Source of the DNA: Phreatobacter cathodiphilus
Lineage (GTDB): Bacteria; Pseudomonadota; Alphaproteobacteria; Rhizobiales; Phreatobacteraceae
Assembly: GCF_003008515.1 (NCBI RefSeq)
Contig: NZ_CP027668.1
Span: 1,170,001-1,234,000 of the forward strand
Length of the DNA stretch: 64,000 nucleotides
Direction of reading: 5' to 3'
Position numbers and translations under genes: made by a program. Positions 8,970 to 21,613 of this stretch are shown one piece after another. A model generated the notes under the pieces. The model did not search any database. It saw nothing but the letters and a program-made list of their open reading frames with translations, and had not been told where the DNA came from. Numbering within the stretch: the stretch's first letter is position 1; every line of letters starts with the position of its first letter.

Positions 8970-10214
8970 TCAGCGCTGGGACACCTGGAGATTGGCCCGC
9001 GCCACCGCCGCGACCGCCTCGGACCGCGTGCGCACGACGATCAGCCGGCGGATCTCGCCGCGCAGGAAAGCCTGCAGGAAGCGGTTGTAGTCCTTGATCG
9101 AGATGCAGCCGTTGGAATCGCCGTTCGGCCCCAGCAGGTAGGTATGGGCGAGGAGGCCGGCGCGGCCGTGGATCGCCTGGGATCCGCCCACGGGATTGAG
9201 GCGGATGGCGCGCACGCCGTGGAACAGCGCCTCGCGCTCGGTGAGGTCATAGGTGTGGGGCGGGGTGGGCCCGCGCATGCGCACATGGGCGTAGCGCGGA
9301 TCGTTGCGCATCTCGCCGAGGCCGGACTGGGCCTCGAGACGCTCGCCGTTGGGCAGGTACACCATGCGCGAGCCGATGTCGTAGATGGCGAGGCCAATCG
9401 GGGGCTTGGGCGCCGCCATGCCGGGAAAGCTCAGGCCGAGGCTGCCGCCGAAGCCGCCGCCCGTCCCGGCGCTGCTGTCCACCGCGCCGCCGCTGGACGG
9501 GGCATAGGCGAGCTGCGGTCCGTCGGCCTCGCGGCGCTGGCCGAAGATGCGCTCGAAGAAGTTGCGCCCGTCGGGCTGGGTGGCAGGTGCCGCGGCCTGA
9601 GTCTCGCCGGCGGGGCGGCGCGACGCGACGCGCGGCGTCTCGGGGGTCGCCGGGGCGGAAGCTTGCGCGGGGCGGCGCAGCGGCAGCGGCGCGACCATGG
9701 TGGTGTCGGGCCCGTCGGTCTCCGCCTCGGCCTGGGTCCCGGGCCTCATGGGCGGCAGCGGCGCCGGCTGGACCAGGCTGCTGACCTCGGGAAGTCCGGC
9801 TTCGCGACCGGGCAGGCTGGCGAGGGCGAGGACGTTCGGACGGGCCGCAGGGGCGGGGGCGGCCTCCGGCAAGGCACGTGCGACGGCGACAGGCGCGGCC
9901 GGCTGCCAGTGGGCGCCGAGCGGCCGGCTCTCGGCGAGCGTCGCAGGCCGCTGTCCCAGCGAGAGCGCCGGGTCGAGCAGCGGGGCGAAGGAGCCGAGGG
10001 CTGCGAAGGCGGGCTTGGGGTCGGCGAGCGAGCCGGTTTCCACCGCGGTGATGGCGGCGAGCGCCACGGCGCCCTTGTCGCCGCGCAGCGAATAGGTCGC
10101 GAGGCCTGCGAGCCCGGCGGAGACGGCGAGGACGGTCAGCCAGGGAAAACGGGGCCCGTCCTGCCGGGCAGGGCGGGCAGGCTTGCCGGAACGGCCGCGG
10201 GTCAGGTCACGCAT
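8970..10214 (-). CDS. Periplasmic DUF2778 (Tlde1-type L,D-transpeptidase-like) protein
   Basis: A 414-residue protein: basic N-terminus, one transmembrane helix near residues 22-42 (FPWLTVLAVSAGLAGLATY), a long Pro/Ala-rich linker, and a C-terminal DUF2778 domain of about 140 residues. That domain has HGRAG (His349) and SNGCIS (Cys370), the His/Cys pair of L,D-transpeptidase-like enzymes; the Salmonella T6SS effector Tlde1 belongs to this family. Here the membrane anchor, linker and lack of a T6SS or immunity gene point to a housekeeping peptidoglycan role in the periplasm. I chose the ATG at 10214; a GTG at 10241 would add nine residues. A perfect 10-bp hairpin lies in the leader. Confidence 0.82.
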   Translation of the reverse strand: MRDLTRGRSGKPARPARQDGPRFPWLTVLAVSAGLAGLATYSLRGDKGAVALAAITAVETGSLADPKPAFAALGSFAPLLDPALSLGQRPATLAESRPLGAHWQPAAPVAVARALPEAAPAPAARPNVLALASLPGREAGLPEVSSLVQPAPLPPMRPGTQAEAETDGPDTTMVAPLPLRRPAQASAPATPETPRVASRRPAGETQAAAPATQPDGRNFFERIFGQRREADGPQLAYAPSSGGAVDSSAGTGGGFGGSLGLSFPGMAAPKPPIGLAIYDIGSRMVYLPNGERLEAQSGLGEMRNDPRYAHVRMRGPTPPHTYDLTEREALFHGVRAIRLNPVGGSQAIHGRAGLLAHTYLLGPNGDSNGCISIKDYNRFLQAFLRGEIRRLIVVRTRSEAVAAVARANLQVSQR

Positions 10215-10535
10215 ACGCAAGAGCCTTGGAACGCCTGGCACATGGTCCCCCGAAGATGTGCCAGGGCGACCGACTCGCGCAACCCCTCAAGGAGTTCGAC
10301 GCGGGTCCGACCGACCGGACGTTGGCGACGCATGAGCCAAAGAACTTGGGCGACCATAAGGCGCCGATGGGGTTAACGCCCGGTGAAGCCGGTCGCCATG
10401 TCCGGCCGGCAAAGGCCCGCACACGCTGGTTTCCCCATTCCGCTACCGATGCCGGCGCGGCGCCTTGCGATTTGAAATCGCCGTCGCCAGCGGGTAGAAG
10501 GCGCCCATGGACAGGGCCCGAAAGAGCCGGTCCGT
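10215..10535. other. Gene-free stretch between DUF2778 gene and tRNA-Thr
   Basis: This 321-bp gap contains the 10-bp inverted repeat at 10234-10265 and presumably the promoters of the DUF2778 gene (leftwards) and of the tRNA (rightwards). I see no convincing coding sequence in it; frames that cross it also run through the tRNA. Confidence 0.5.
10234..10265 (-). promoter_or_regulatory. Leader hairpin of the DUF2778 gene
   Basis: CCTGGCACAT (10234-10243) and ATGTGCCAGG (10256-10265) are perfect inverted repeats around a 12-nt loop, ending 20 bp before the start codon. In the transcript this would fold into a stable stem immediately before the ribosome binding region. It could control translation or mRNA stability, or be an operator. 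Confidence 0.45.
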
Positions 10536-10610
10536 GCCGGCGTAGCACAGCGGTAGTGCAGCGGTTTTGTAAACCGAAGGTCGGGAGTTCGATCCTCTCC
10601 GCCGGCACCA
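10536..10610 (+). tRNA. tRNA-Thr (anticodon TGT)
   Basis: Acceptor arms GCCGGCG (10536-10542) and CGCCGGC (10600-10606) pair perfectly. D-arm GCACAGCGGTAGTGC, anticodon loop TTTGTAA with TGT at its centre, and T-arm with GTTCGAT follow. The 3' end ACCA is encoded. The 75 nt including CCA form a complete cloverleaf with one G-A mismatch at the top of the anticodon stem. It ends 7 bp from the convergent IclR gene. Confidence 0.95.
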
Positions 10611-10617
10611 GTTCCTC

Positions 10618-11391
10618 TCAGCCGCCCGCGCCGAAATGGCGTTCGATCTTCCCCCGCAGCAGCGCGGCAAAGACTTTCTCCTTCTCCACCACCTCGAAGG
10701 CCTGGCCGCCGATGCCAACGGCCATGGGCTGCGACTGGTCGGCGGTGGGCAGCAGCGTGCAGACGATTCCCGCGCCGGGCACGATGCGGCTCGCCGAGAC
10801 GGCATGGCCAAGGGCGCGGATGGCACGGACCTCCGCCATCACCGCGTCGAGGTCGACCGGAGCCGTCTCCGGCTCGCGGGCGAGGTTCACCCGCGCGATG
10901 CGCCGGGCGATCTCGGCGTCGTCCATGGCCGAGAGCAGCATCAGCCCCATGCCGGAGCCGGCGATGGGGCGGCGCGTGCCGGCGGGGATGTGAAGGCGCA
11001 TGGCCCGCGTCGCCGGAATGACCGCGATGTAGACGACATGGATGTCGCTGGCGATGCCGAGCAGGATGGTCTCGCCGGTCTCCTCGCCGAGCTCGCGCAT
11101 CAGCCGCGTGACGCGCCCGTCGGTGACGCGCCCGTCGATCCAGCGCCCGAGCATGGAAACGCGCGCCGTCGGCTGCACGCGCCGGTCGGGCAGGGCGGTG
11201 AGGTAGCCGAGGTCGATGAGGCCGTTGACCAGCATGGACGTGGAGGACTGCGGGATGCCCATCTCGCGGGCGATCTCGGTGACGCTCGCCGGCCGCTCCA
11301 GCCGGTCGAAGAGTTCGAACAGCGCCAGCACCCGCGTCGCGGATTTCACCCCGCCCGTGTCGAACGATCTGCGCGGCCTCGGCATCAACAC
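10618..11391 (-). CDS. IclR-family transcriptional regulator
   Basis: A 257-residue regulator: winged helix-turn-helix at about 14-75 (ATRVLALFELFDRL, SVTEIAREMGIPQSST) and the IclR effector-binding domain at about 85-250 (PIAGSGMGLMLLSAM, and PGAGIVCTLLP). Such proteins bind small aromatic or aliphatic acids and control adjacent catabolic genes. It is transcribed divergently from the acyl-CoA dehydrogenase operon, and the shared intergenic region carries a near-perfect dyad and a -35-like box that recur upstream of the maoC gene. The inferred regulon is therefore the acyl-CoA cluster at 11.5-17.8 kb. Confidence 0.9.
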   Translation of the reverse strand: MLMPRPRRSFDTGGVKSATRVLALFELFDRLERPASVTEIAREMGIPQSSTSMLVNGLIDLGYLTALPDRRVQPTARVSMLGRWIDGRVTDGRVTRLMRELGEETGETILLGIASDIHVVYIAVIPATRAMRLHIPAGTRRPIAGSGMGLMLLSAMDDAEIARRIARVNLAREPETAPVDLDAVMAEVRAIRALGHAVSASRIVPGAGIVCTLLPTADQSQPMAVGIGGQAFEVVEKEKVFAALLRGKIERHFGAGG

Positions 11392-11406
11392 CTCCAGTCG
11401 AACTAC

Positions 11407-11442
11407 ATCGCATATGTGATAAATAAAATCAAATTGACGAAT
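11407..11442 (+). promoter_or_regulatory. Putative IclR operator and promoter of the acyl-CoA dehydrogenase operon
   Basis: ATCGCATATGTGAT (11407-11420) is a dyad centred on CATATG with 12 of 14 symmetric positions. ATTGACGAAT (11433-11442), containing the -35-like TTGACG, follows. ATATGTGAT and ATTGACGAAT occur with the same 21-bp start-to-start spacing at 15978-16008. No clear -10 element is visible. Confidence 0.55.
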
Positions 11443-11497
11443 ATGGGGGATGCTGCCAGTTTGCCCGCAACACCAAAAAATGAGGAAACGAGAGCGG

Positions 11498-12637
11498 ATG
11501 GAACTCTGGCCGGCCTGTATCGACGCCGACTATGTCGCGGGAGTCCGCGACTTCGCGCGCCGTGAGATCAGTCCCCAGGCCGACGACATCGACCGCCGCG
11601 ACGTCTATCCCCGCGACATCCTCAAAGCCATGGCGAAGGCGGGTTACAACGCCGTCGCCCTGCCGGTGGAAGACGGGGGCGCCGGGCTCGGCTACGGGCA
11701 CGCGGCGGCGGTCTTCGAGGAGGTGTCCTATGCCAGCGCCGCCGTCGGCATCTCGCTGATCACGATTTTTCAGGCGCAGACCATCATCCGCATCTTCGGC
11801 AACGACACGCTGAAGCGGGAATGGCTGCCGCAGTTCGGGCAGGGGTTGCTGTCCTCCTACGCCCTCACCGAGGCCAACCACGGCAGCGACATCCGCAGCC
11901 TCGACACCAAGGCGGTGCGCGACGGCGAGGGCTGGGTGCTGACGGGCGAGAAATCCTTCATCACCTCAGGCTCGGCCGCCGAGTTCTTCATCATCCTCGC
12001 CGAGACGCCGGTGGGGGTCTCCACCTTCGCCGTGCCGGCCGGGCTCGACGGGCTCTCCTCCTATATCGGCACCAATTCCGCGACCTTCGGCCTGCGCAAC
12101 GGTCCGCACGTCAACCTCGTGCTCGATCGGGTGCGGCTCCCCGGCCACGCGCTCATCGGCGTCGAGGGCAAGGGCGTGCGCCAGGCGGTGGGCACGCTCA
12201 ACTATTCCCGCACGCTCGCCGGCGCCATCAGCATCGGCATCGCCCGCGCCGCCTTCGACGCGGCGCTGGCCTTCGTCGGCAAGCGCAAGGCTTTCGACCA
12301 GCGCGTCATCGAGTTCCAGGGCATCCAGTGGTACTTCGCCGAGATGCTGGCGGAGATCGAGGCGGCGCGCCTGCTGGTCTATCGCGCCGCCGAGGCGCTC
12401 GATTCCGGCGTCGACCAGGACCGCTATGCCAGCGCCGCCAAGCTCAAGGCGGCGAAGGTCGCCACCGACGTCGCCGCCCTCGCGGTTCAGGTGTGCGGTG
12501 CCTACGGCGTCATGGAGAACGCCCCCTTCGGACGTTTCCTGCGCGACGCCAAGGCCTATGAGATCGCCGGCGGCTCGGCAGAAATCCTGAAGAACACCCT
12601 CGGCAAGTATCTGACCCGGGTGCTGGCGGCGTCATGA
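11498..12637 (+). CDS. Acyl-CoA dehydrogenase
   Basis: A 379-residue FAD-dependent acyl-CoA dehydrogenase that introduces a 2,3-double bond into an acyl-CoA. Visible family signatures are SYALTEANHGSDI and EKSFITSGSAAEF in the middle domain, and YGVMENAPFGRFLRDAKAYEIAGGSAEI in two parts of the C-terminal helical domain; the residue usually acting as base lies near the AGGSAEI segment. Start ATG 11498 is preceded by GAGGAAACGAGAG; in-frame starts at 11450 and 11480 are less well placed. It overlaps the next gene by 4 bp (ATGA), so translation is coupled. Substrate chain length is unknown. Confidence 0.9.
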   Translation: MELWPACIDADYVAGVRDFARREISPQADDIDRRDVYPRDILKAMAKAGYNAVALPVEDGGAGLGYGHAAAVFEEVSYASAAVGISLITIFQAQTIIRIFGNDTLKREWLPQFGQGLLSSYALTEANHGSDIRSLDTKAVRDGEGWVLTGEKSFITSGSAAEFFIILAETPVGVSTFAVPAGLDGLSSYIGTNSATFGLRNGPHVNLVLDRVRLPGHALIGVEGKGVRQAVGTLNYSRTLAGAISIGIARAAFDAALAFVGKRKAFDQRVIEFQGIQWYFAEMLAEIEAARLLVYRAAEALDSGVDQDRYASAAKLKAAKVATDVAALAVQVCGAYGVMENAPFGRFLRDAKAYEIAGGSAEILKNTLGKYLTRVLAAS

Positions 12638-14193
12638 TCACCGACCTTCTCGCCCGCCACGCGGAGGAGCATCCCGACCGCACCTTCGTGGTGACGGATG
12701 GGGCCGAATGGTCCTTCGGCGCGGTGGACGCCGCGGCCCGCCGCTTCGGCGCCATGCTGCAGGCGCGCGGCGTCGCCCCCGGCGACCACGTGGCGCTGAT
12801 CGCCGGCAATTCCGCCGGCTTCCTCGTCGCCTGGTTCGGCATCAATCTCGCCGGCGCCGTGGCGGTCACCGTCAATATCCAGCTCGTCGGCGATGGCCTC
12901 GCCTATGTCGTTGCCCAGTCCGAGGCGAAGCTCATCGTCGCCGATCGCGCCTTCCTCTCAGGCCAGGGCGCGGTGGGGCAGGGCGCCTTCCACGGCATTC
13001 CGCTCATTGAGCTCGCGGCCGACACGGACCTCATGGCCGGCAGTGACGGCGCCGAACTCCGGCCGGTCCGCCTGCCGCCGCTCGCCCCCGCCACCATGAT
13101 GTACACCTCCGGCACGACGGGCCTGCCCAAGGGCGTCGTCAACAGCCACGCCGCCTACGAGGCCGCGGGCGCCGAGATCGTGGCGGCGCTGGGCTTCAGC
13201 CCCCAAGACCGCTGCATGGTGGTCCTGCCCCTCTTCCACGCCAACCCGCAGATGTACGCGGTCATGTCGGCGCTCCAGGTCGGCTATGCGTTGGTGCTGC
13301 GCGAGAAGTTCTCGGCCACCAGCTTCTTCGCCGATGCCCGCCGTTTCCGCGCCACCTGCTTCACCTATGTCGGCACCATCCTGTCGATCCTCGTGGCGCG
13401 TCACGACGAGGATCGCGACCACGCCCTGCGCTTCTGCACCGGCGGCGGCGCGCCCGAAAAGGTCTGGCGCGAGGTCGAGCAGCGCTTCGGCGTGAAGGTG
13501 CGCGAGCTCTATGGGATGACCGAGATCGGCGGCTTCGTCTCCCTCAACACCGAAGGTGCCACCCGCATCGGCTCCTGCGGCCGGCTCCGCCCCGACATGG
13601 ACGTGCGCATCGTCGATGCCGAGGACGAGGAGCTGCCCGCCGACGCCCAGGGGGAGATCGTCGTGCGGCCGCGGAAACCCGGCGTCATCCTCTCCGGCTA
13701 CTGGCGCCAGCCCGACAAGATGGTCGAGGCCAGCCGCAATCTCTGGTTCCACACTGGCGACCGCGGCCATATCGACGCCGACGGCTATCTGCACTTCCAC
13801 GGCCGCATCAAGGAGCTGATCCGCCGCGGCGGCGAGATGGTCTCTCCCGTCGAGGTGGAGACGGTGCTGCGCAAGATGCCGGGCGTCGCCGACTGCGCCG
13901 TGGTCGGCATCGACGACGCGGTGCTCGGCCAGGAGATCAAGGTCCTCGTCGTGCCCGATGCGGCGCCGCTCGCCCCGGCCGACGTCCTCGCCTTTCTGGA
14001 CGGCCGCGTGCCGTCCTTCATGATCCCGCGCTATGTCGAATTCGCCGCCTCGGTCCCCAAGACCGAGACCGAGAAGGTACAGCGCCACAAGATCGCCTAT
14101 GTCGATGCCCGCGTGCACGACATGGCGTCCGCCGAGAGGCGGATCCAGCCGCGTCATGGGGGCGTGGTATCGGGTACCGCAGGCGAGGGATGA
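12634..14193 (+). CDS. AMP-dependent acyl-CoA synthetase/ligase (CaiC-like)
   Basis: A 519-residue ANL-superfamily ligase that activates a carboxylic acid to its CoA thioester with ATP. The P-loop-like motif TSGTTGLPKG is at 158-167; then ELYGMTEIGG, the hinge Asp region in HTGDRGHID, the GRIKELIRRGGE motif and the catalytic Lys region in PKTETEKVQRHK are present. Closest in style to crotonobetaine/carnitine-CoA ligase and medium-chain acid ligases. Being 4-bp overlapped with an acyl-CoA dehydrogenase and followed by a solute receptor, it likely performs the first step of catabolism of an imported acid. Confidence 0.9.
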   Translation: MITDLLARHAEEHPDRTFVVTDGAEWSFGAVDAAARRFGAMLQARGVAPGDHVALIAGNSAGFLVAWFGINLAGAVAVTVNIQLVGDGLAYVVAQSEAKLIVADRAFLSGQGAVGQGAFHGIPLIELAADTDLMAGSDGAELRPVRLPPLAPATMMYTSGTTGLPKGVVNSHAAYEAAGAEIVAALGFSPQDRCMVVLPLFHANPQMYAVMSALQVGYALVLREKFSATSFFADARRFRATCFTYVGTILSILVARHDEDRDHALRFCTGGGAPEKVWREVEQRFGVKVRELYGMTEIGGFVSLNTEGATRIGSCGRLRPDMDVRIVDAEDEELPADAQGEIVVRPRKPGVILSGYWRQPDKMVEASRNLWFHTGDRGHIDADGYLHFHGRIKELIRRGGEMVSPVEVETVLRKMPGVADCAVVGIDDAVLGQEIKVLVVPDAAPLAPADVLAFLDGRVPSFMIPRYVEFAASVPKTETEKVQRHKIAYVDARVHDMASAERRIQPRHGGVVSGTAGEG

Positions 14194-14240
14194 GCCGCCC
14201 CGGCGGCGTTCCGAACCGGCCATCCAAACGGAGGAACTTC

Positions 14241-15218
14241 ATGATCGATCGTCGCACATTCGCCTTCGGCACGGCGGCCCTCGGCCTGTCGCTGGCGGCA
14301 CCCGCGGTCGCCCGCGCCCAGGCCGGCTACCCGAACCGCCCGGTCCGCATGCTGGTCGGCTTCGCCGCCGGCGGCCCGACCGACATCGTCGCCCGCCAGC
14401 TCGCCCAGTACATGGCGGAATCCTTCGGCCAGTCCATCGTCATCGAGAACCGCGGCGGCGCCAACGGCAACATCGCGGCGCAGGAAATCGCCCAGTCGCA
14501 GCCCGACGGCTACAACCTCTTCTACAACACCTCGGCCATCGCCATCAGCCCGGCGCTCTATCCCCGCCTCGGCTACGACGCCAAGGCCTTCGTGCCGATC
14601 GGGCTGACGGCCACCGTGCCGATGGTGCTCGAGGTCCATCCGCAGATGCCGGTGAACAACGTCAAGGAGTTCACCGACTACGTGAAGGCCAATGCCGACA
14701 AGCTGTCCTACGCCTCCACCGGCAACGGCTCCATCACCCATCTCGGCAGCGCGCTGCTCCTCGGCCGCATGGGCGCCAAGGTCACCCACGTGCCCTATCG
14801 CGGCAGCGCCCCGGCTCTCGTCGACCTCGCCGGCGGCCGGGTCCACTTCATGACGGACACGATCAACTCCTCGCTGCCCTTCATCCAGGACGGCCGCCTG
14901 AAGCCGCTCGCCGTCACCAGCACCAAGCGCCTCGCGGCCCTGCCCAACATTCCGACCCTCACCGAGCTCGGCCTGCAGGATCTGGAGATCGGCGCCTGGC
15001 AGGGCATCGTGGCCCCGGCCGGCACCCCGGCGGAGGTGGTGCAGAAGGTCAACGGCGCCATGATGACGGCGCTGAAGAACCGGGAATTCCTGTCGCGCCT
15101 CGAGGCCCAGCAGACGACGCCGCTCGGCAGCACGCCGGAGGACTACGGCAAGTACATCCTCGCCGAGCTCGCCCGCTGGGACAAGGTGGTGAAGGAGAAC
15201 GGCATCACCATGAACTGA
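14241..15218 (+). CDS. Bug-family (TctC-like) extracytoplasmic solute receptor
   Basis: A 325-residue periplasmic binding protein of the tripartite tricarboxylate transporter receptor family. The signal (MIDRRTFAFGTAALGLSL, ending ARAQA) has a twin-arginine look. Family motifs include YPNRPVRMLVGFAAGGPTD and RGGANGNIAAQEIAQ. Start ATG 14241 has GGAGGAA just upstream. No tctA/tctB membrane genes are nearby, so it is an orphan receptor, as is common for Bug proteins; it may serve a distant transporter or act as a sensor. Co-location with the ligase suggests a carboxylic acid ligand. Confidence 0.9.
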   Translation: MIDRRTFAFGTAALGLSLAAPAVARAQAGYPNRPVRMLVGFAAGGPTDIVARQLAQYMAESFGQSIVIENRGGANGNIAAQEIAQSQPDGYNLFYNTSAIAISPALYPRLGYDAKAFVPIGLTATVPMVLEVHPQMPVNNVKEFTDYVKANADKLSYASTGNGSITHLGSALLLGRMGAKVTHVPYRGSAPALVDLAGGRVHFMTDTINSSLPFIQDGRLKPLAVTSTKRLAALPNIPTLTELGLQDLEIGAWQGIVAPAGTPAEVVQKVNGAMMTALKNREFLSRLEAQQTTPLGSTPEDYGKYILAELARWDKVVKENGITMN

Positions 15219-15242
15219 GGTGGGAGCCGGCCGGCGGGGCCC

Positions 15243-15959
15243 TCAGCTCCGTCGGTCGCGCACCGCGCGCAGCATGGACGGCCAGAGAGCCAGCGTCTCG
15301 GTGAAGGCCTCCTCGTCGAACCGCTTCAGGCGCCGGCGGGTCAGTTCCAGCGCCACGGGCGAAAGCTTCGACAGGTCGCCGGCGAGGCGCAGGGCTTCGG
15401 CCAGCACCTCGCCGGGTTCGGCCTCGCGGTTGAACAGGCCGAGCCGCCGGCATTCGGCCGCGTCCATCATGCGGCCGGTGAGGCAGAGGTCGGTCGCCAC
15501 CGTCAGGCCGAGGGCCGAGGAGATGATCCACGGCCCCGAACTCGACGCGATGCCCGCGCGGATCTCCGGCTGGCCCATCCGCACCCCGTCATGGCCGACG
15601 CGGAAGTCGCAGAGCAGCGCCACCTGGAAAGCGGAGCCGGCGGCGACCCCGTTCAGCGCCGCGATGCTCGGTTTGGAAAGGTTCCGGAAGGCGCCGAAGA
15701 AGCGGCCCCAGGCGGCGACCCAGGCCTCGATTGCGCCGTCGGCGGGGGGCGCTTCGTCGCGGTCCTGCCCGGCGCCGAAGGCGCGCGCGCCGGCCCCCGT
15801 GACGATAACCACCCGCACCTCGGGATCGGCATCGAGGGCTTCGAGCGCCTCCACGATCTCGGCCCGCATCGCCGCATGCCAGGCGTTGAGGGCGTCCGGC
15901 CGGTCGAAGGTCAGTATGGCGGCCGGGCCCTCGCGGGTGACGGTGATGGTGGACGGCAT
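15243..15959 (-). CDS. Enoyl-CoA hydratase/isomerase family protein
   Basis: A 238-residue crotonase-fold protein that presumably hydrates or isomerises an enoyl-CoA made in this cluster. Visible are the N-terminal ILTFDRPDALNAW, the oxyanion-hole segment AFGAGQDR and the NGVAAGSAFQVALLCDF segment. In canonical hydratases two Glu residues lie after this second glycine motif; here the region reads RMGQPEIRAG with one Glu, so the exact reaction is uncertain. ATG 15959 was chosen because it gives the family-typical N-terminus; upstream in-frame starts would run into the operator region. It is divergent from the maoC/caiB pair. Confidence 0.85.
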   Translation of the reverse strand: MPSTITVTREGPAAILTFDRPDALNAWHAAMRAEIVEALEALDADPEVRVVIVTGAGARAFGAGQDRDEAPPADGAIEAWVAAWGRFFGAFRNLSKPSIAALNGVAAGSAFQVALLCDFRVGHDGVRMGQPEIRAGIASSSGPWIISSALGLTVATDLCLTGRMMDAAECRRLGLFNREAEPGEVLAEALRLAGDLSKLSPVALELTRRRLKRFDEEAFTETLALWPSMLRAVRDRRS

Positions 15960-15971
15960 GGGGACCTCAAT

Positions 15972-16008
15972 GATCATATATGTGATCAAGTTAATCGTAT
16001 TGACGAAT
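15972..16008 (+). promoter_or_regulatory. Putative IclR operator and promoter of the maoC-caiB operon
   Basis: GATCATATATGTGATC (15972-15987) is a 14-of-16 symmetric dyad. ATTGACGAAT (15999-16008) follows at the same spacing as in the copy at 11407-11442. With -35 TTGACG at 16000 a weak -10 (TAGCAC) is possible at 16023. It lies between divergent enoyl-CoA hydratase and maoC genes and could control both. Confidence 0.55.
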
Positions 16009-16056
16009 TCTGGCCTGTGAACTAGCACCGAACAAAGCTTGGAGAAAGAACGGGAG

Positions 16057-16548
16057 ATGACCATGGCGGAGACGATGCAGACGGTGGGCCTCGGCCTGCG
16101 CTGGGAGGATACCCCGGTCGGAATGAAGTTCCGCACCATCGGGCGGACGATCACCGAGGCCGACATCACCCTCTTCGTCGGCGTCACCGGCATGGTCGAG
16201 GTGCTCTTCACCAACCTCGAATATCTCGAGGAGGAATCGCTCTTCGCCGGCAAGCGCCTCTGCCCGGGCGCGCTGGTCTATTCCTTCGCCGAGGGCCTGC
16301 TGATGCAGTCGGTCGTTCAGGGCGTCGGCCTGTCGTTCCTCGGCATGGACCTCAACGTCGCGGGCCCGACCTTCGCCGGCGACACGATCCACGTCGAATG
16401 CGAGGTGGTGGAGTCCCGCGCCACGCGGAAGCCCGGACGCGGCATCGTCAAGACGGTCAACCGCGTCGTCAACCAGCGCGGCGAGACGGTGATGACCTAC
16501 AGCCCGACGCGCCTGGTCAAGGGTCGCGACTACTCGCCCAAGAGCTGA
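16057..16548 (+). CDS. MaoC-family dehydratase
   Basis: A 163-residue hot-dog-fold hydratase. The MaoC/R-hydratase pattern is seen in RTITEADITLFVGVTGM (an Asp in the ITEADI turn), CPGALVYSFAEGLL and the GDTIHVECEV strand. It probably hydrates an enoyl-CoA, complementing the crotonase-type enzyme encoded divergently. Start ATG 16057 has GGAGAAAG nine bases upstream; an ATG at 16063 and a TTG at 16039 are alternatives. The next gene, the CoA transferase, begins 14 bp downstream, so they form an operon. Confidence 0.88.
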   Translation: MTMAETMQTVGLGLRWEDTPVGMKFRTIGRTITEADITLFVGVTGMVEVLFTNLEYLEEESLFAGKRLCPGALVYSFAEGLLMQSVVQGVGLSFLGMDLNVAGPTFAGDTIHVECEVVESRATRKPGRGIVKTVNRVVNQRGETVMTYSPTRLVKGRDYSPKS

Positions 16549-16562
16549 GCGGGGGCCGCGCC

Positions 16563-17762
16563 GTGGGACCGCTGGCGGGCATCCGCATCCTCGACCTGAC
16601 CACCGTCATGATGGGCCCCTCGGCGACGCAGGTGCTCGCCGAGATGGGCGCCGACGTCGTCAAGGTCGAGGCGCCCGGCGGCGATCCCGTCCGCTACATC
16701 GGCCCCGCCCGCCACCACGGCATGGGCGCGCTCTTCCTCAACGCCAATGGCTCCAAACGCTCCATCGTCATGGACCTGAAGAGCGAGGGCGGCAGGCGGG
16801 CCCTGCTGAAGCTCTGCGAAAGCGCCGACATCCTCGCCTACAACATCCGCCCCCAGGCGATGTCCCGCCTCGGCCTCGGCTACGAGGACGTCCGCTCCGT
16901 CCGGCCGGACATCATCTATGCCGGCATGTTCGGCTACGGCCAGGACGGGCCCTATGCCGCCCGCCCGGCCTATGACGACCTGATCCAGGGCGCGGCTCTG
17001 CTGCCCTTCCTCATCGCCCGCGCCAGCGACGGCACGCCGCGCTACGTCCCTGCCGCCATCGCCGACCGCATCGTCGGTCTAGCCGCGGTCGGCGCCATCA
17101 ACGCAGCGCTCTATCACCGGGAGAAGACCGGCGAGGGCCAGCGCGTCGACGTGCCGATGTTCGAGACCATGGTGAGCCTGACGCTCGCCGACCATCTCGG
17201 CGGCCTCACCTTCGAGCCGCCGGTCGGGGAGGGGGGCTACCAGCGCCTGCTGTCGCCCGAGCGCCGGCCCTACCGCACGAAGGACGGCTACATCTGCGCC
17301 CTCGTCTACAACGACAAGCAGTGGCGGAGCTTCTACGCGGCGACCGGTCGGGCCGCGGACTATGACGCCGATCCGCGCCTCGCCTCCATCAAAACGCGCA
17401 CCGAGCATATCGACGCGCTCTATGCCGAGGTCTCCGCCGCCTTCGCCGGGCGCACCACGGCCGAATGGATGGAACTGCTCGAGAAGGCCGACATCCCCTT
17501 CGTACCGCTGCACGATTTCGAATCGATCATGCAGGACCCGCACCTGAAGGCCGTCGGTTTCATGCCGGTGGTGGAGCATCCGAGCGAGGGTGCGATCCGC
17601 AAGATCCAGCCGGCGAGCCGCTGGTCGAAGACCCAGGCCGAGCCGCACCGGCCGGCGCCCCGGCTCGGCGAGCACAGCCGCGAACTCCTGGCCGAGGCGG
17701 GCCTGGCCGCCGCCGAGATCGACGGCCTCATCGCCTCCGGCGCCGTCCAGGCGGAAGGCTGA
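16563..17762 (+). CDS. CaiB/BaiF (family III) CoA transferase
   Basis: A 399-residue family III CoA transferase. N-terminal LAGIRILDLTTVMMGP and MGADVVKVEAPGGDPVR are diagnostic, followed by NGSKRSIVMDLKSEGGR and GYGQDGPYAARPAYDDLIQ, whose Asp is at the position of the catalytic aspartate in the family. It moves CoA between acyl-CoA and a free acid without ATP. A GTG start at 16563 follows a G-rich ribosome site. Together with the CoA ligase and dehydrogenase it fits degradation of a carboxylic acid; the substrate cannot be named. Convergent with the next CoA-transferase pair. Confidence 0.92.
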   Translation: MGPLAGIRILDLTTVMMGPSATQVLAEMGADVVKVEAPGGDPVRYIGPARHHGMGALFLNANGSKRSIVMDLKSEGGRRALLKLCESADILAYNIRPQAMSRLGLGYEDVRSVRPDIIYAGMFGYGQDGPYAARPAYDDLIQGAALLPFLIARASDGTPRYVPAAIADRIVGLAAVGAINAALYHREKTGEGQRVDVPMFETMVSLTLADHLGGLTFEPPVGEGGYQRLLSPERRPYRTKDGYICALVYNDKQWRSFYAATGRAADYDADPRLASIKTRTEHIDALYAEVSAAFAGRTTAEWMELLEKADIPFVPLHDFESIMQDPHLKAVGFMPVVEHPSEGAIRKIQPASRWSKTQAEPHRPAPRLGEHSRELLAEAGLAAAEIDGLIASGAVQAEG

Positions 17763-17765
17763 AAC

Positions 17766-18536
17766 TCAGCCGGCCCGCTTAAGGTCGAGGCCGGCGATGT
17801 CGGCCGTGATCTGCCGGGCGAATTCCGGATAGGTCTCCCCGAGTTCGGTGAGAACCCGGCCGCGCAACAGGGCGAGAGTCGCGGCGTCGGGCCCGGCCGT
17901 CTCGGGCACCTCCGCCTCATGGTCGAAGGCAAAGCCCGTGGCCGCCGTGATCTCGGAGAGCGTGTGACCGGGATGGACGCTCTCCAGCCGGAAGCGCTTG
18001 GCCGCCTTGTCGAAGGAGAAGAGGCCGAGGCTCGTCAGCAGGGCATGGGGGCCGCCCGAGCGGTGGACGCCCTCGGGGCTGGTGCCGGGGGCGGAGATGA
18101 AGTCGACCTTCTCCACGAAGACCCGCGGCGTGTGCTCCTCGCGGAACAGGATGACCCGCGGCACCACGAAATAGAGATAGGACGAGCCGAAGGAGCCCGG
18201 CCAACGCACCGGCGTCTGCGGATAGTCGCCGGTGCCGACCAGGTTGATGTTGGCCTCGCCGTCGATCTGGCCACCGCCGAGGAAGAAGGCGTCGATCCGG
18301 CCCTGTCCGGCGCAGTCGAACAGCTCCGCCGAGCCGTTGGTGAAGAAGTTGTGCTCGCGCGAGCCGAGGATGGAGATGCGCACCCGTGGCTTGCCGTCGC
18401 GCTCGGCGAGCGCCCTGAGCAGCATAGCGCCCGCCGCCGGAATGGGCGAGGAGGCGCCCACCGCCACGTGGCGCACGCCCTCCAGCAGCCGCGCGATGGC
18501 GACGATCAGCCGCTCGCGCGGCAGCACGGCGCTCAC
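17766..18536 (-). CDS. Class I CoA-transferase-like subunit B (IpdB-type)
   Basis: A 256-residue beta-type subunit of the glutaconate CoA-transferase/IpdB family. Features include VAVGASSPIPAAGAMLL, FFLGGGQIDGEANINLVGTGDY and HRSGGPHALLTSLGLF. Proteins of this family act either as CoA transferases or, like IpdAB of steroid degradation, as ring-opening CoA hydrolases. The GTG start at 18536 overlaps the stop of the alpha-type gene by 4 bp, so the two subunits are translationally coupled. The reaction here is not determinable from sequence. Confidence 0.85.
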   Translation of the reverse strand: MSAVLPRERLIVAIARLLEGVRHVAVGASSPIPAAGAMLLRALAERDGKPRVRISILGSREHNFFTNGSAELFDCAGQGRIDAFFLGGGQIDGEANINLVGTGDYPQTPVRWPGSFGSSYLYFVVPRVILFREEHTPRVFVEKVDFISAPGTSPEGVHRSGGPHALLTSLGLFSFDKAAKRFRLESVHPGHTLSEITAATGFAFDHEAEVPETAGPDAATLALLRGRVLTELGETYPEFARQITADIAGLDLKRAG

Positions 18537-19351
18537 GAGACCGCCTCGAGCGCCCGGTCGGCGCCGTCGAGATAGGCGCGGAAGCCTTCCGGACTGCGCG
18601 CCTCGCGGGCATAGCGGCCGATCTCGGCCATGTCGGCGGGATATTCGCCCCAGAGGCCGATGGGGGCCGCGCCCTGCGGCACCACCGCCACCGCCTCGAC
18701 GTAGAGGGCGGGCAGCACGCCCGCCGCCATCACCTCGTCGGCCAGCAGGCTCGTCTCGACGATGCGCTCGACGGTGACGAGGGTGCGCTCGGAGGCATAG
18801 GCGAGGCTGGCGAGCTCCCGCCGCCGGCCGATCCACACATTGCCGTCCCGGTCGGCCATGGGGCAGTGGAAGATGGTCACGTCGGGCCGGATCGCGGGGA
18901 TGGCGACGATCGGGTCAGGCTCCTCCGCGAAGGGGTTCTGGATCACCCGCCAGTCGGGCCGGTTGGCGAGGAGGTCGGTGCCGATCATGCCCCGCAGCGT
19001 CGCGAAGGGAACGCCCTTCTGCGCCGCCAGGAAGCCGGCGTGGACCGCGGGGCAGGTGGCGTCCATCACCTTCACCGATCCCTCGCGCACGGCTCGGGCG
19101 AAGCAGGGCGCGCCGCCCGCCTCGCCGAGGGTCATGGCGCTGGTCTCGATGGTGGCGACGCAGCCCGCCCCGATGAGCATGTCCGGCTGCATGCCGCCGG
19201 TGGGCAGGCAGACCACGTGCAGGCCGGTGAGGCCGCGGGCGATGAGCGGCCGCGTCATCGCCATGGAGACGCCCGCATAGTCGACGGGCAGGGCGAGCTT
19301 GGCGCCGTTCGGCACCATGCGGGCGAGATCGTCCAGGCTATGGGTCTGCAT
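18533..19351 (-). CDS. Class I CoA-transferase-like subunit A (IpdA-type)
   Basis: A 272-residue alpha-type subunit: N-terminal MVPNGAKLALPVDYAGVSMA, the nucleotide-like LHVVCLPTGGMQPDMLIGAG, and PDVTIFHCPMADRDGNVWIG. It pairs with the overlapping IpdB-type gene. ATG 19351 is preceded by GGAGGAGCCACC, a good ribosome site, which decides against an upstream start at 19483. The MHS transporter gene ends 190 bp upstream behind a strong terminator, so the pair has its own promoter in that gap. Confidence 0.85.
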   Translation of the reverse strand: MQTHSLDDLARMVPNGAKLALPVDYAGVSMAMTRPLIARGLTGLHVVCLPTGGMQPDMLIGAGCVATIETSAMTLGEAGGAPCFARAVREGSVKVMDATCPAVHAGFLAAQKGVPFATLRGMIGTDLLANRPDWRVIQNPFAEEPDPIVAIPAIRPDVTIFHCPMADRDGNVWIGRRRELASLAYASERTLVTVERIVETSLLADEVMAAGVLPALYVEAVAVVPQGAAPIGLWGEYPADMAEIGRYAREARSPEGFRAYLDGADRALEAVS

Positions 19352-19480
19352 GGTGGCTCCTCCGCGGTGCGTCGGCCGTTTCGGCTCTTGCGCGCGAGTA
19401 TCGCGGGGCGGGAGAGGCGCTGGCAATCCGCCGGACGGCGGGGCTGCCCGGCGGGCGCGCATGGGAGTTTCGTGGCTCCG

Positions 19481-19517
19481 CAAAAACGCGAACGGCGCCG
19501 GAGATGTCTCCGGCGCC
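19481..19517 (-). terminator. Intrinsic terminator of the MHS transporter gene
   Basis: GGCGCCGGAGA and TCTCCGGCGCC (19494-19517) form a perfect 11-bp stem with a two-base (CA) centre. On the minus strand it is followed by GTTCGCGTTTTTGCG, giving a T-tract. It ends 25 bp past the transporter stop codon. Confidence 0.85.
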
Positions 19518-19541: not shown

Positions 19542-21218
19542 CTACTTGGTGTCGTAGGTGAAGATGTCGCGGTCCTTGGTCTCGGGAACGAAGAGCAGGC
19601 CGATGACGAAGGTCATGAGCGCGATCACGATCGGGTACCAGAGGCCGTAGTAGATGTCGCCCGTGGCGGCCACCATGGCGAAGGAGGTGGCCGGCAGCAG
19701 GCCGCCGAACCAGCCGTTGCCGATGTGATAGGGCAGCGACATGGCGGTGTAGCGGATGCGAGTGGGGAAGAGTTCCACCAGCGCGGCGGCGATCGGGCCG
19801 TAGACCATGGTCACGTAGATGACCAGGATCGTCAGGATGCCGATGATCCAGAGCGACCTGCCGCTGCCGAGCGCCGAGAAGAAGCCGTTGACCTTGATGA
19901 TCTCGGCATTGCCGGCGGCCGGATAGCCCGCCGCCACGGTGGCGGCGGCGAGGTTGCGGGCGAAGGCGGCGTCGATCGGGATCGCCGTGCCGTTGACCGT
20001 CAGCGTGGCGCCCGAACCGGCCGGTCCGGCCACCGTCTCGTACTTGATCGCCTGGTTGGCGAGCGCGACACGGGAGACGTCGCAGGGTGCGGTGAAGACG
20101 CGGGTGCCGACGGGATTGAAGACGTTGCCGCAGCCGGCGGGATCGGCGGTGAGCACCACCTTCACCTGCTCGTGGGCGCGGTGCAGGGCCGGGTTGGCGG
20201 CCTTGGTCAGCGACGCGAACAGCGGGAAGAAGGTCGCCGCGGCGATGAGGCAGCCGGCGAGGATGATCGGCTTGCGGCCGATCCTGTCGGACAGCGCACC
20301 GAAGACGATGAAGAAGCCGGTGCCGAGGATGAGCGACCAGGCGATCAGCACGTTGGCGGTGAACAGATCGACCTTCAGGATGCTCTGCAGGAAGAACAGC
20401 GCGTAGAACTGGCCGGTGTACCAGACCACGGCCTGGCCGGCCGTGAGGCCGAACAGGGCGAGCAGGGCGATCTTGGCGTTCTTCCACTGGCCGAAGGCTT
20501 CCGACAGCGGGGCCTTCGAATGGGTTCCCTCTTCCTTCATCTTCTTGAAGGCCGGGCTCTCGTTCATCTGGAGACGGATCCAGACCGAGATGCCGAGCAG
20601 GAACACCGAGAGCAGGAAGGGCAGACGCCAGCCCCAGGACGCGAAGGCCTCCTCGCCCAGATAGAGGCGGATGCTGAGGATGACTACCAGCGACAGGAGC
20701 AGGCCGACGGTCGCCGTCGTCTGGATCCACGACGTGTAGAAACCGCGGCGGCCGGGCGGAGCGTGCTCGGCGACATAGACGGCGGCACCGCCATACTCGC
20801 CGCCGAGGGCGAGGCCCTGCAGCATGCGCAGCACGATGAGGATCACCGGGGCGGCCCAGCCGATCGTGGCATAGGAGGGCAGCAGGCCGACCAGGAAGGT
20901 CGAGATGCCCATGATCAGGATGGTGACGAGGAAGGTGTACTTGCGGCCGACCAGGTCACCGAGCCGGCCGAACACCAGCGCGCCGAAAGGGCGGACGAGG
21001 AAGCCGGCGGCGAAGGCCAGCAGCGCGAAGATGGCGCGGGTGTTGGCGTCGAAGGGCGCGAAGAACTGCGCGCCGATCATCACGGCGAGCGAGCCGTAGA
21101 GGTAGAAATCGTACCATTCGAAAATGGTGCCGAGCGAGGAGGCGAGAATGACCTTGCGTTCTTCCTTGGTCATGGGGCGCGGGGTTGCCGGCGCCGCGAC
21201 GGCGGTTGCCATCGTCAT
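19542..21218 (-). CDS. MHS-family MFS transporter (metabolite:H+ symporter)
   Basis: A 558-residue inner-membrane permease with 12 predicted helices. MHS traits are the TIFEWYDFYLYGSLA start, the MFS loop motif FGRLGDLVGRKY, LGGEYGGAAVYVAEHAPPGRRGFY in two parts, and DRIGRKPIILAG in the second half. Relatives (ShiA, ProP, KgtP) import organic acids or betaines with protons. Unusual is a hydrophilic insert of about 110 residues around 350-460, with two Cys (AGCGNVF and APCDVS), between helices of the second half. ATG 21218 follows AAGGAAGGAACG. It probably feeds the adjacent CoA-based catabolism. Confidence 0.88.
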   Translation of the reverse strand: MTMATAVAAPATPRPMTKEERKVILASSLGTIFEWYDFYLYGSLAVMIGAQFFAPFDANTRAIFALLAFAAGFLVRPFGALVFGRLGDLVGRKYTFLVTILIMGISTFLVGLLPSYATIGWAAPVILIVLRMLQGLALGGEYGGAAVYVAEHAPPGRRGFYTSWIQTTATVGLLLSLVVILSIRLYLGEEAFASWGWRLPFLLSVFLLGISVWIRLQMNESPAFKKMKEEGTHSKAPLSEAFGQWKNAKIALLALFGLTAGQAVVWYTGQFYALFFLQSILKVDLFTANVLIAWSLILGTGFFIVFGALSDRIGRKPIILAGCLIAAATFFPLFASLTKAANPALHRAHEQVKVVLTADPAGCGNVFNPVGTRVFTAPCDVSRVALANQAIKYETVAGPAGSGATLTVNGTAIPIDAAFARNLAAATVAAGYPAAGNAEIIKVNGFFSALGSGRSLWIIGILTILVIYVTMVYGPIAAALVELFPTRIRYTAMSLPYHIGNGWFGGLLPATSFAMVAATGDIYYGLWYPIVIALMTFVIGLLFVPETKDRDIFTYDTK

Positions 21219-21613
21219 GGGACGTTCCTTCCTTGGGAGGTGAGCACGTGTGCGGGGGAGGCCGCTTCGTAGCTTCGTTTCTTTGGATCGGAGTGCCGAG
21301 GGTGCGACACAGGCGCACAGGGCTAGGACGGCCCGGACGCGCTGTCGCTTGGACATTGGTCGATGAAACTTTGGTCGATCGGCACTTCGGCCTAGGCCGG
21401 CTGAGGCCCCGGCGCGCGAAGACGCCGAAAAGTGGCGATCCTGTGCCGATTTTCCGGCGTCGACATGGTTAGTCGAAAGTTGAAGCGACGAAAGATGTAA
21501 GCACTACTACTCTGATGGCAGCGGCGGGACTCAGGCTCGCACGCCAATCGACCGGGCCAACCCGGCCCCAAGCGCCCGTTAGAGGCGTGAAGAAGATCAG
21601 GGAGGATGATTGG
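21219..21613. other. Divergent promoter region with tandem direct repeat
   Basis: This 395-bp gap separates the MHS transporter (leftwards) from the SSS operon (rightwards). TTGGTCGAT occurs twice in direct orientation at 21356-21364 and 21371-21379, a 15-bp period, which may bind a regulator of one or both transporters. I see no supported gene here. Confidence 0.4.

Follow-up and report, generated by a model that had tools for sequence, protein, structure and literature searches.

Do two intergenic sites of Phreatobacter cathodiphilus that carry the same repeat answer to the same regulator? Both lie in a 64,000-nucleotide stretch of contig NZ_CP027668.1 (positions 1,170,001 to 1,234,000, forward strand; hereafter the window), among genes for an IclR-family regulator and a set of acyl-CoA enzymes. 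A first-pass annotation of the window had described two promoters sharing an operator plus -35 block, each overlapping a near-perfect dyad, one between iclR and an acyl-CoA dehydrogenase operon and the other between an enoyl-CoA hydratase gene and maoC-caiB. We conclude that the two sites are very probably operators of the neighbouring IclR, each a tandem of two units that a tetramer would bind, and that the protein would control both operons. The sites, their parts and the regulator gene are, in window coordinates:

11407-11442, + strand: site 1, predicted tandem operator between iclR and the acyl-CoA dehydrogenase operon; position weight matrix (PWM) score 63.4
11407-11420, + strand: unit A of site 1, ATCGCATATGTGAT
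11428-11441, + strand: unit B of site 1, ATCAAATTGACGAA
11434-11439, + strand: putative -35 TTGACG in unit B of site 1, read from the sequence
15973-16008, + strand: site 2, predicted tandem operator between the enoyl-CoA hydratase gene and maoC-caiB; PWM score 64.2
15973-15986, + strand: unit A of site 2, ATCATATATGTGAT
15994-16007, + strand: unit B of site 2, ATCGTATTGACGAA
16000-16005, + strand: putative -35 TTGACG in unit B of site 2, read from the sequence
10618-11385, - strand: iclR, 255-residue IclR-family regulator and proposed binder of both sites (Pfam HTH_IclR, IclR_C)

The description of the repeats, their dyads and their surroundings proved accurate. The pattern ATATGTGAT-N12-ATTGACGAAT occurs with zero mismatches at 11412-11442 and 15978-16008, both on the + strand, and the distance from the start of ATATGTGAT to the start of ATTGACGAAT is 21 bp at each. 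The dyads ATCGCATATGTGAT and ATCATATATGTGAT form six of seven complementary pairs apiece, and the flanking genes are iclR and the dehydrogenase gene at site 1 and the hydratase gene and maoC at site 2. One hundred shuffled versions of the window contained the pattern 0.00 times on average, against two observed. Across the whole genome (4,494,445 bases, one contig) it matches these two sites only at up to three mismatches, and the wider consensus ATCNNNNATGTGATNNNNNNNATCNNATTGACG, at the same threshold, returned the same two places and no further members of the regulon. A PWM built from 12 distinct sites, with those of this genome left out, was scored within the window; the best position overlapping neither site reached 0.7, far from the scores listed above. 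A single dyad with at most one mismatch occurs at five additional places in the genome, all of them covered by one or more open frames longer than 150 codons, and on that ground we treated them as chance occurrences. The 36-bp cores of the two sites are identical at 28 of 36 bases. Their 60-base flanks share 12 bases upstream and 16 downstream, about what chance would give, so that the two places resemble each other only within the site, and we rejected a recent segmental duplication of the promoter for this reason.

How are the sites built? Each consists of two 14-bp units of the form ATC-N8-GAW, 21 bp apart, with the putative -35 inside the downstream one. We aligned 18 sites from nine genomes; several are identical or closely related rather than independent, so the figures that follow describe conservation and do not amount to a statistical test. 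Mean information was 1.44 bits in unit A and 1.64 in unit B, compared with 0.88 in the 7-bp spacer and 0.25 and 0.53 in the flanks. Unit A was the most symmetrical 14-mer of the region, with 4.9 of 7 pairs (0.9-3.2 at other offsets). When it was compared with the 14-mer lying d bases downstream, for d from 10 to 32, identity peaked at d = 21 (7.28 of 14 bases; next 5.28), and the second unit is placed at this offset in 18 of 18 sites.

For comparison we turned to a survey of IclR motifs, presumably that of Suvorova and Gelfand (2021). In the part of it available to us, palindromes in tandem, 18-22 nt from centre to centre, are described for 94 IclR orthologous groups, and this spacing is related to tetramers whose dimers sit on one face of the DNA (PMC8222616). 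The present sites resemble these operators in that the unit centres are 21 nt apart, as would fit tetramer binding; they differ in that, next to a clearly palindromic unit A, the second unit is weakly palindromic and overlaps the putative -35. Could the pair then be a chance occurrence or a generic promoter element, a -35 box with an upstream A/T element? TTGACG is common as a -35 and unit B is a weak dyad, but such an account sits badly with two sites found where none were expected, with their being the only ones in the genome at up to three mismatches, and with the conservation of ATC and GAT outside the -35, which one Methylobacterium unit B has kept after losing its -35 (see below). On these counts and this conservation we rejected it as highly improbable.

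If the sites belong to IclR, they should be found where IclR is found. Our genus sample comprised 12 genomes of the family, all from the one genus, and an IclR orthologue was counted at E 1e-40 or better. Seven of the 12 have one, this genome included, and the six others are 78-95% identical to it; the nearest named relatives are from four Phreatobacter metagenome-assembled genomes (78-90%) and one assigned to Rhizobiales (95%). Both sites occur at orthologous places in all seven, each with 0-2 mismatches to the consensus, and the five genomes without IclR gave zero genome-wide matches at up to two. At three mismatches there was one match outside the locus in each of G004, G007 and G008. The narrower ATATGTGAT-N12-ATTGACGAAT, at up to three mismatches, also matched once in G005, where the sole related gene found was a hydratase of 28% identity. 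Two of the seven, G002 and G009, keep the regulon with the dehydrogenase, ligase and hydratase genes absent from the fetched region, so that tctC is flanked by the two sites, site 1 separating it from iclR and site 2 from maoC. Homologues of maoC (E 1e-40 or better) are present in ten of the 12 genomes: the seven with IclR, G004 and G007 (85-87% identity) and G001 (56-57%). In the last three, which have no IclR orthologue at E 1e-40, no site was found upstream of maoC within the fetched 18.0-19.5 kb (best match six mismatches in G004 and G007, none at up to six in G001). The site thus follows the regulator and not maoC. As an aside, G001 has a cluster of its own (L085:2452-14237), in which the motif is absent, with IclR (27%), CaiB (43%), MaoC (56%) and acyl-CoA dehydrogenase (36%) homologues and three TctC-like genes.

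The association can be followed beyond the genus. An order-wide search of 397 genomes found IclR at E 1e-50 or better in seven, all of them Phreatobacter. The consensus at up to three mismatches matches 151 of the 397, and because the pattern also reads as in-frame coding sequence (ATC, GTG, ATC, TTG ACG) we treated matches outside the genus as background, a class assigned to them collectively, from part of the matches, rather than one by one; among the matches listed, the best of them (G123) has one mismatch. A reversed-pattern control gave far fewer matches, but we do not rely on it, since it is ill suited to serve as a control here. We then sampled a second genus, with 111 genomes from the genus of Methylobacterium sp. 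2A, and obtained IclR alignment matches at E 1e-50 or better in 13. Two of these proteins are close (about 55% identity), from Methylobacterium sp. 2A itself (G397) and from G426; the other 11 are at 38-43%. In both genomes with a close IclR, iclR is divergent from dehydrogenase-ligase genes and the hydratase gene is divergent from maoC-caiB, and no tctC or glutaconate-type transferase gene was found within the 18-19 kb read at these clusters. Their site 2, between hydratase and maoC, reads ATCATATATGCGATTAATAAAATCGCATTGACGAT or ATCACGTATGCGATGAATAAAATCGCATTGACGAT, with 0 mismatches to the Y-allowing consensus ATCNNNNATGYGATNNNNNNNATCNNATTGACG; site 1, which separates iclR from the dehydrogenase gene, is weaker, with two mismatches in G426. 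All nine site-bearing genomes have iclR, maoC and caiB, although in G003 the end of the contig truncates caiB; the remaining genes come and go among them.

Nine of the 11 more distant Methylobacterium IclRs have a dyad ATCAC-NNN-TGTGAT (N3 = AGA, ACA or GGA) within 500 nt upstream of their own gene, followed 21 bp on by a degenerate second unit, in every case with CGAT at its end and without TTGACG; the independent count is below nine because L087-L090 are nearly identical to each other. At the distant IclR loci L033-L038 (31-37%) there was no tandem consensus match at up to four mismatches. Exact single dyads occur there in L037 upstream of its ligase gene (ATCACATATGTGAT) and in L034 at 3820 (ATCACGCATGTGAT), and one-mismatch dyads for example at L034:2689, just past the iclR 3' end, and at L036:1921, just upstream of iclR. 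Such single dyads are near chance at one mismatch and we do not use them as evidence.

These comparisons bear on what unit B is. In site 1 of Methylobacterium G426 (ATCAAATGGGCGAT) unit B retains ATC...GAT and the -35 hexamer is gone (TTGACG to TGGGCG). Together with the second units of the distant Methylobacterium dyads, which lack the hexamer too, this points to unit B as an operator unit in itself. For Phreatobacter, where TTGACG is kept in 14 of 14 sites, it argues that the putative -35 is built into the operator unit. The first-pass reading of an operator with a -35 block beside it therefore holds in part: a putative -35 is present, but the ATTGACGAAT block that contains it would also be the second unit of the operator.

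The adjacency of iclR is by itself weak evidence, and a different, unlinked regulator might bind the sites with IclR as a mere neighbour. We think this improbable. The presence of the sites tracks IclR in 12 of 12 Phreatobacter genomes (seven have both, five neither at up to two mismatches), the two Methylobacterium genomes with a close IclR also carry them, a similar dyad lies upstream of nine of the 11 genes for IclRs at 38-43%, and the unit spacing is typical of the family as described in the available part of the survey (PMC8222616). Binding of the neighbouring IclR to both sites, although predicted, is thus strongly supported. The shared IclR regulon proposed by the first-pass annotation, which had suggested looking for the motif upstream of orthologues in related genomes, is borne out as a prediction: the sites are there in all seven IclR-bearing Phreatobacter genomes and in both Methylobacterium genomes with an IclR of 55% identity, and absent before maoC in the three genomes that have maoC but lack the regulator.

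We also asked whether the protein and its sites resemble a known system. Membership of the IclR family is clear from Pfam (HTH_IclR 45.0 bits, cut-off 22; IclR_C 63.9 bits, cut-off 24). The named NCBIfam models of the family (BhcR, KdgR, IclR, AllR, PcaR/PcaU/PobR) gave five matches, all far below their cut-offs. PcaR, PcaU and PobR are acid-responsive regulators of catabolism, and their subfamily model (TIGR02431) was the best of these matches, at 78.4 bits against a cut-off of 284.75. Their motifs, as given in the available part of the survey, are of the type GTNCG-N5-6-CGNAC, some with a third box (PMC8222616), and are not seen here. BhcR of Paracoccus denitrificans controls the beta-hydroxyaspartate cycle and responds to glyoxylate; the available part of its description presents it as an activator for which the authors propose a dual role (PMC11323563). 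The regulator studied here is like BhcR in being an IclR-type protein encoded divergently from a catabolic cluster in an alphaproteobacterium, and BhcR has a potential palindrome upstream of a -35 (PMC11323563). It is unlike BhcR in the genes regulated, and it scored 75.6 bits where the BhcR equivalog model demands 350.

The mechanism that we infer from sequence would run as follows. One dimer would bind each unit and a dimer of dimers each pair, on one face of the DNA, with centres two helical turns apart. Binding at unit B would control whether RNA polymerase can reach the dehydrogenase-ligase-TctC operon at site 1 and maoC-caiB at site 2. Effects on iclR itself and on the leftward hydratase gene are also to be expected, because site 1 begins 22 nt from the start codon of the former and site 2 14 nt from that of the latter. 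The effector would be a small acid or a CoA ester of the pathway. Because the downstream unit covers the putative -35, we favour a model in which IclR represses both rightward operons and the effector lifts the repression, and regard this mode of action as moderately probable.

Several observations count against this picture. The palindrome of unit B is weak (2.9 of 7 pairs over the 18 sites), and much of the unit's conservation could reflect constraint on the -35. A scan for consensus promoters found none in 11380-11510 around site 1, and in 15950-16075 around site 2 found no + strand promoter and a single - strand match (16021-15994). By eye, the unit (approximately ATCACA-N2-TGTGAT) fully fits neither the group 1 nor the group 2 consensus in the available part of the IclR survey, sharing only the inner ACA-N2-TGT with group 2, TGRAACAN1-2TGTTYCA (PMC8222616). 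At up to three mismatches, ATATGTGAT-N12-ATTGACGAAT recovers both sites in three of the seven IclR-bearing Phreatobacter genomes, one site in three and none in G009, the remainder being detected only by the looser consensus. For two of the 11 distant Methylobacterium IclRs (L091, L096), the 500 nt upstream of the gene contain no ATC-N8-GAT unit. Site 1 of sp. 2A is weak, differing from the original consensus at five positions. Behind it, the genes for dehydrogenase and ligase (L032:6279-8896) are split over several frames, with maoC and caiB each in one piece; joint decay of the site and these genes would fit, and the frame splits may also be errors of a draft assembly. Finally, repression cannot be assumed, because BhcR is described as an activator in the available part of its report (PMC11323563).

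The same operators and the same IclR could accordingly serve activation or dual control, an effector-bound tetramer that lies upstream of the -35 and touches it recruiting polymerase to weak -10 boxes and repressing iclR. This is possible, if somewhat doubtful. It draws on the absence of a + strand consensus promoter at either site, and on the dual role proposed for BhcR, which activates in a divergent layout (PMC11323563). It would also suit the hexamers 17 bp past TTGACG, which are poor as -10 elements: CAGTTT at site 1 (11457-11462) and TAGCAC at site 2 (16023-16028), the latter identical in all seven Phreatobacter genomes. An activator is harder to reconcile with a unit B that takes in the whole of a near-consensus -35, which would put bound protein in competition with sigma, and with the conservation of TTGACG throughout Phreatobacter. 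Activator-dependent promoters often have poor -35 boxes.

What would such a regulator control? The other genes around the two sites are:

10536-10610, + strand: tRNA-Thr (TGT), 7 bases from the iclR 3' end
11498-12637, + strand: acyl-CoA dehydrogenase-fold protein with Ser237 and Gly358 at the base positions (Pfam and alignment)
12634-14193, + strand: AMP-forming acyl-CoA ligase (Pfam AMP-binding)
14190-15218, + strand: TctC/Bug-type extracytoplasmic solute receptor, start perhaps at 14241 (Pfam TctC)
15243-15959, - strand: enoyl-CoA hydratase/isomerase-family protein with Gln112, divergent from maoC across site 2 (Pfam and alignment)
16063-16548, + strand: MaoC-like hydratase, first gene of the site 2 operon (Pfam MaoC_dehydratas)
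16545-17762, + strand: CaiB-type (family III) CoA-transferase (Pfam CoA_transf_3)
17766-19483, - strand: two glutaconate CoA-transferase-like subunits, 17766-18836 and 18533-19483 (Pfam CoA_trans)
19542-21356, - strand: MFS metabolite/H+ symporter-like gene, adjoining the glutaconate CoA-transferase-like genes

The glutaconate CoA-transferase-like genes adjoin caiB in four of the six other Phreatobacter loci (G010, G006, G002, G009); in G008 they are not beside it, and in G003 the contig ends there. No operator was found for these genes or the MFS gene, the best PWM scores being -10.8 in the gap between them and -3.4 upstream of the MFS gene. The transferase-like genes are perhaps outside the regulon, since they have no operator of their own. 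At the other end of the locus, the 3' ends of tRNA genes are frequent joining places of genomic islands, and to the left of tRNA-Thr lies a gene (8970-10241, - strand) for a protein with a C-terminal Tlde1 domain (PF10908).

The first-pass annotation had read the genes as a route of acid uptake, activation and steps like those of beta-oxidation. The enzymes themselves make this doubtful. In alignments with solved relatives, the dehydrogenase homologue has Gly358 where the YEGT motif has its Glu, and Ser237 where an isovaleryl-CoA dehydrogenase has the Glu of its LDYER; both residues are invariant in the six aligned orthologues, that of Methylobacterium G426 included. The alternative catalytic bases are E401 in MCAD and E286 in IVD, according to the available part of one report (PMC12369846), so the protein has Glu at neither the MCAD-type nor the IVD-type position and does not look like a canonical acyl-CoA dehydrogenase. 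Gly358 alone is unremarkable, because Gly or Ala occupies the MCAD-type position in the long-chain and isovaleryl types, as stated in the available part of another (PMC11659651). It is the apparent loss of Glu at both positions that is striking, and a base may lie elsewhere in the protein. Crotonases, for their part, use two catalytic Glu. The hydratase homologue keeps one, Glu132 of GQPE, and has Gln112 aligned with the Glu of GGGCELA in EchA8 (6 of 6 aligned), so that it too departs from a canonical enoyl-CoA hydratase; the solved relative 4kd6 has the same Gln. Gene content adds to the doubt, as G002 and G009 keep the regulon without dehydrogenase, ligase or hydratase in the fetched region, and the uptake step is in question because the 18-19 kb read at each of the two Methylobacterium clusters contain no TctC receptor.

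The gene families do not point to a substrate: among the matches listed (ligase 25 of 107, hydratase 25 of 71), none to an NCBIfam model reached its cut-off. The itaconate operon ripABC is reported to encode a family III CoA-transferase, a MaoC-like hydratase and a lyase. Here too a CaiB-type transferase stands beside a MaoC-like hydratase, but the RipB model gave 50.5 bits where 340 are required, and no lyase was among the nine proteins scanned. We raise, tentatively and as a rather unlikely reading, an undescribed acyl-CoA route in which a Glu-less dehydrogenase-fold enzyme would carry out a step other than dehydrogenation (for instance desulfinase- or decarboxylase-like) alongside the ligase, a Gln-type crotonase, MaoC and CaiB, under one dedicated IclR acting through twin operators. 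"Undescribed" has as its sole basis a limited literature search, which found no account of such an IclR-linked acyl-CoA gene set.

The IclR tandem operator is a kind of switch already known, and the regulation described here adds one group to a well-described kind. A pair of repeats has become a specific, conserved and testable regulon of one regulator, two 36-bp operators and two operons, in which the natural gene losses of relatives tell which parts belong together: IclR, MaoC and CaiB. The Glu-less dehydrogenase homologue makes the question of the substrate more interesting than ordinary beta-oxidation would, and the operator could be used as a reporter to screen for the acids that induce it.

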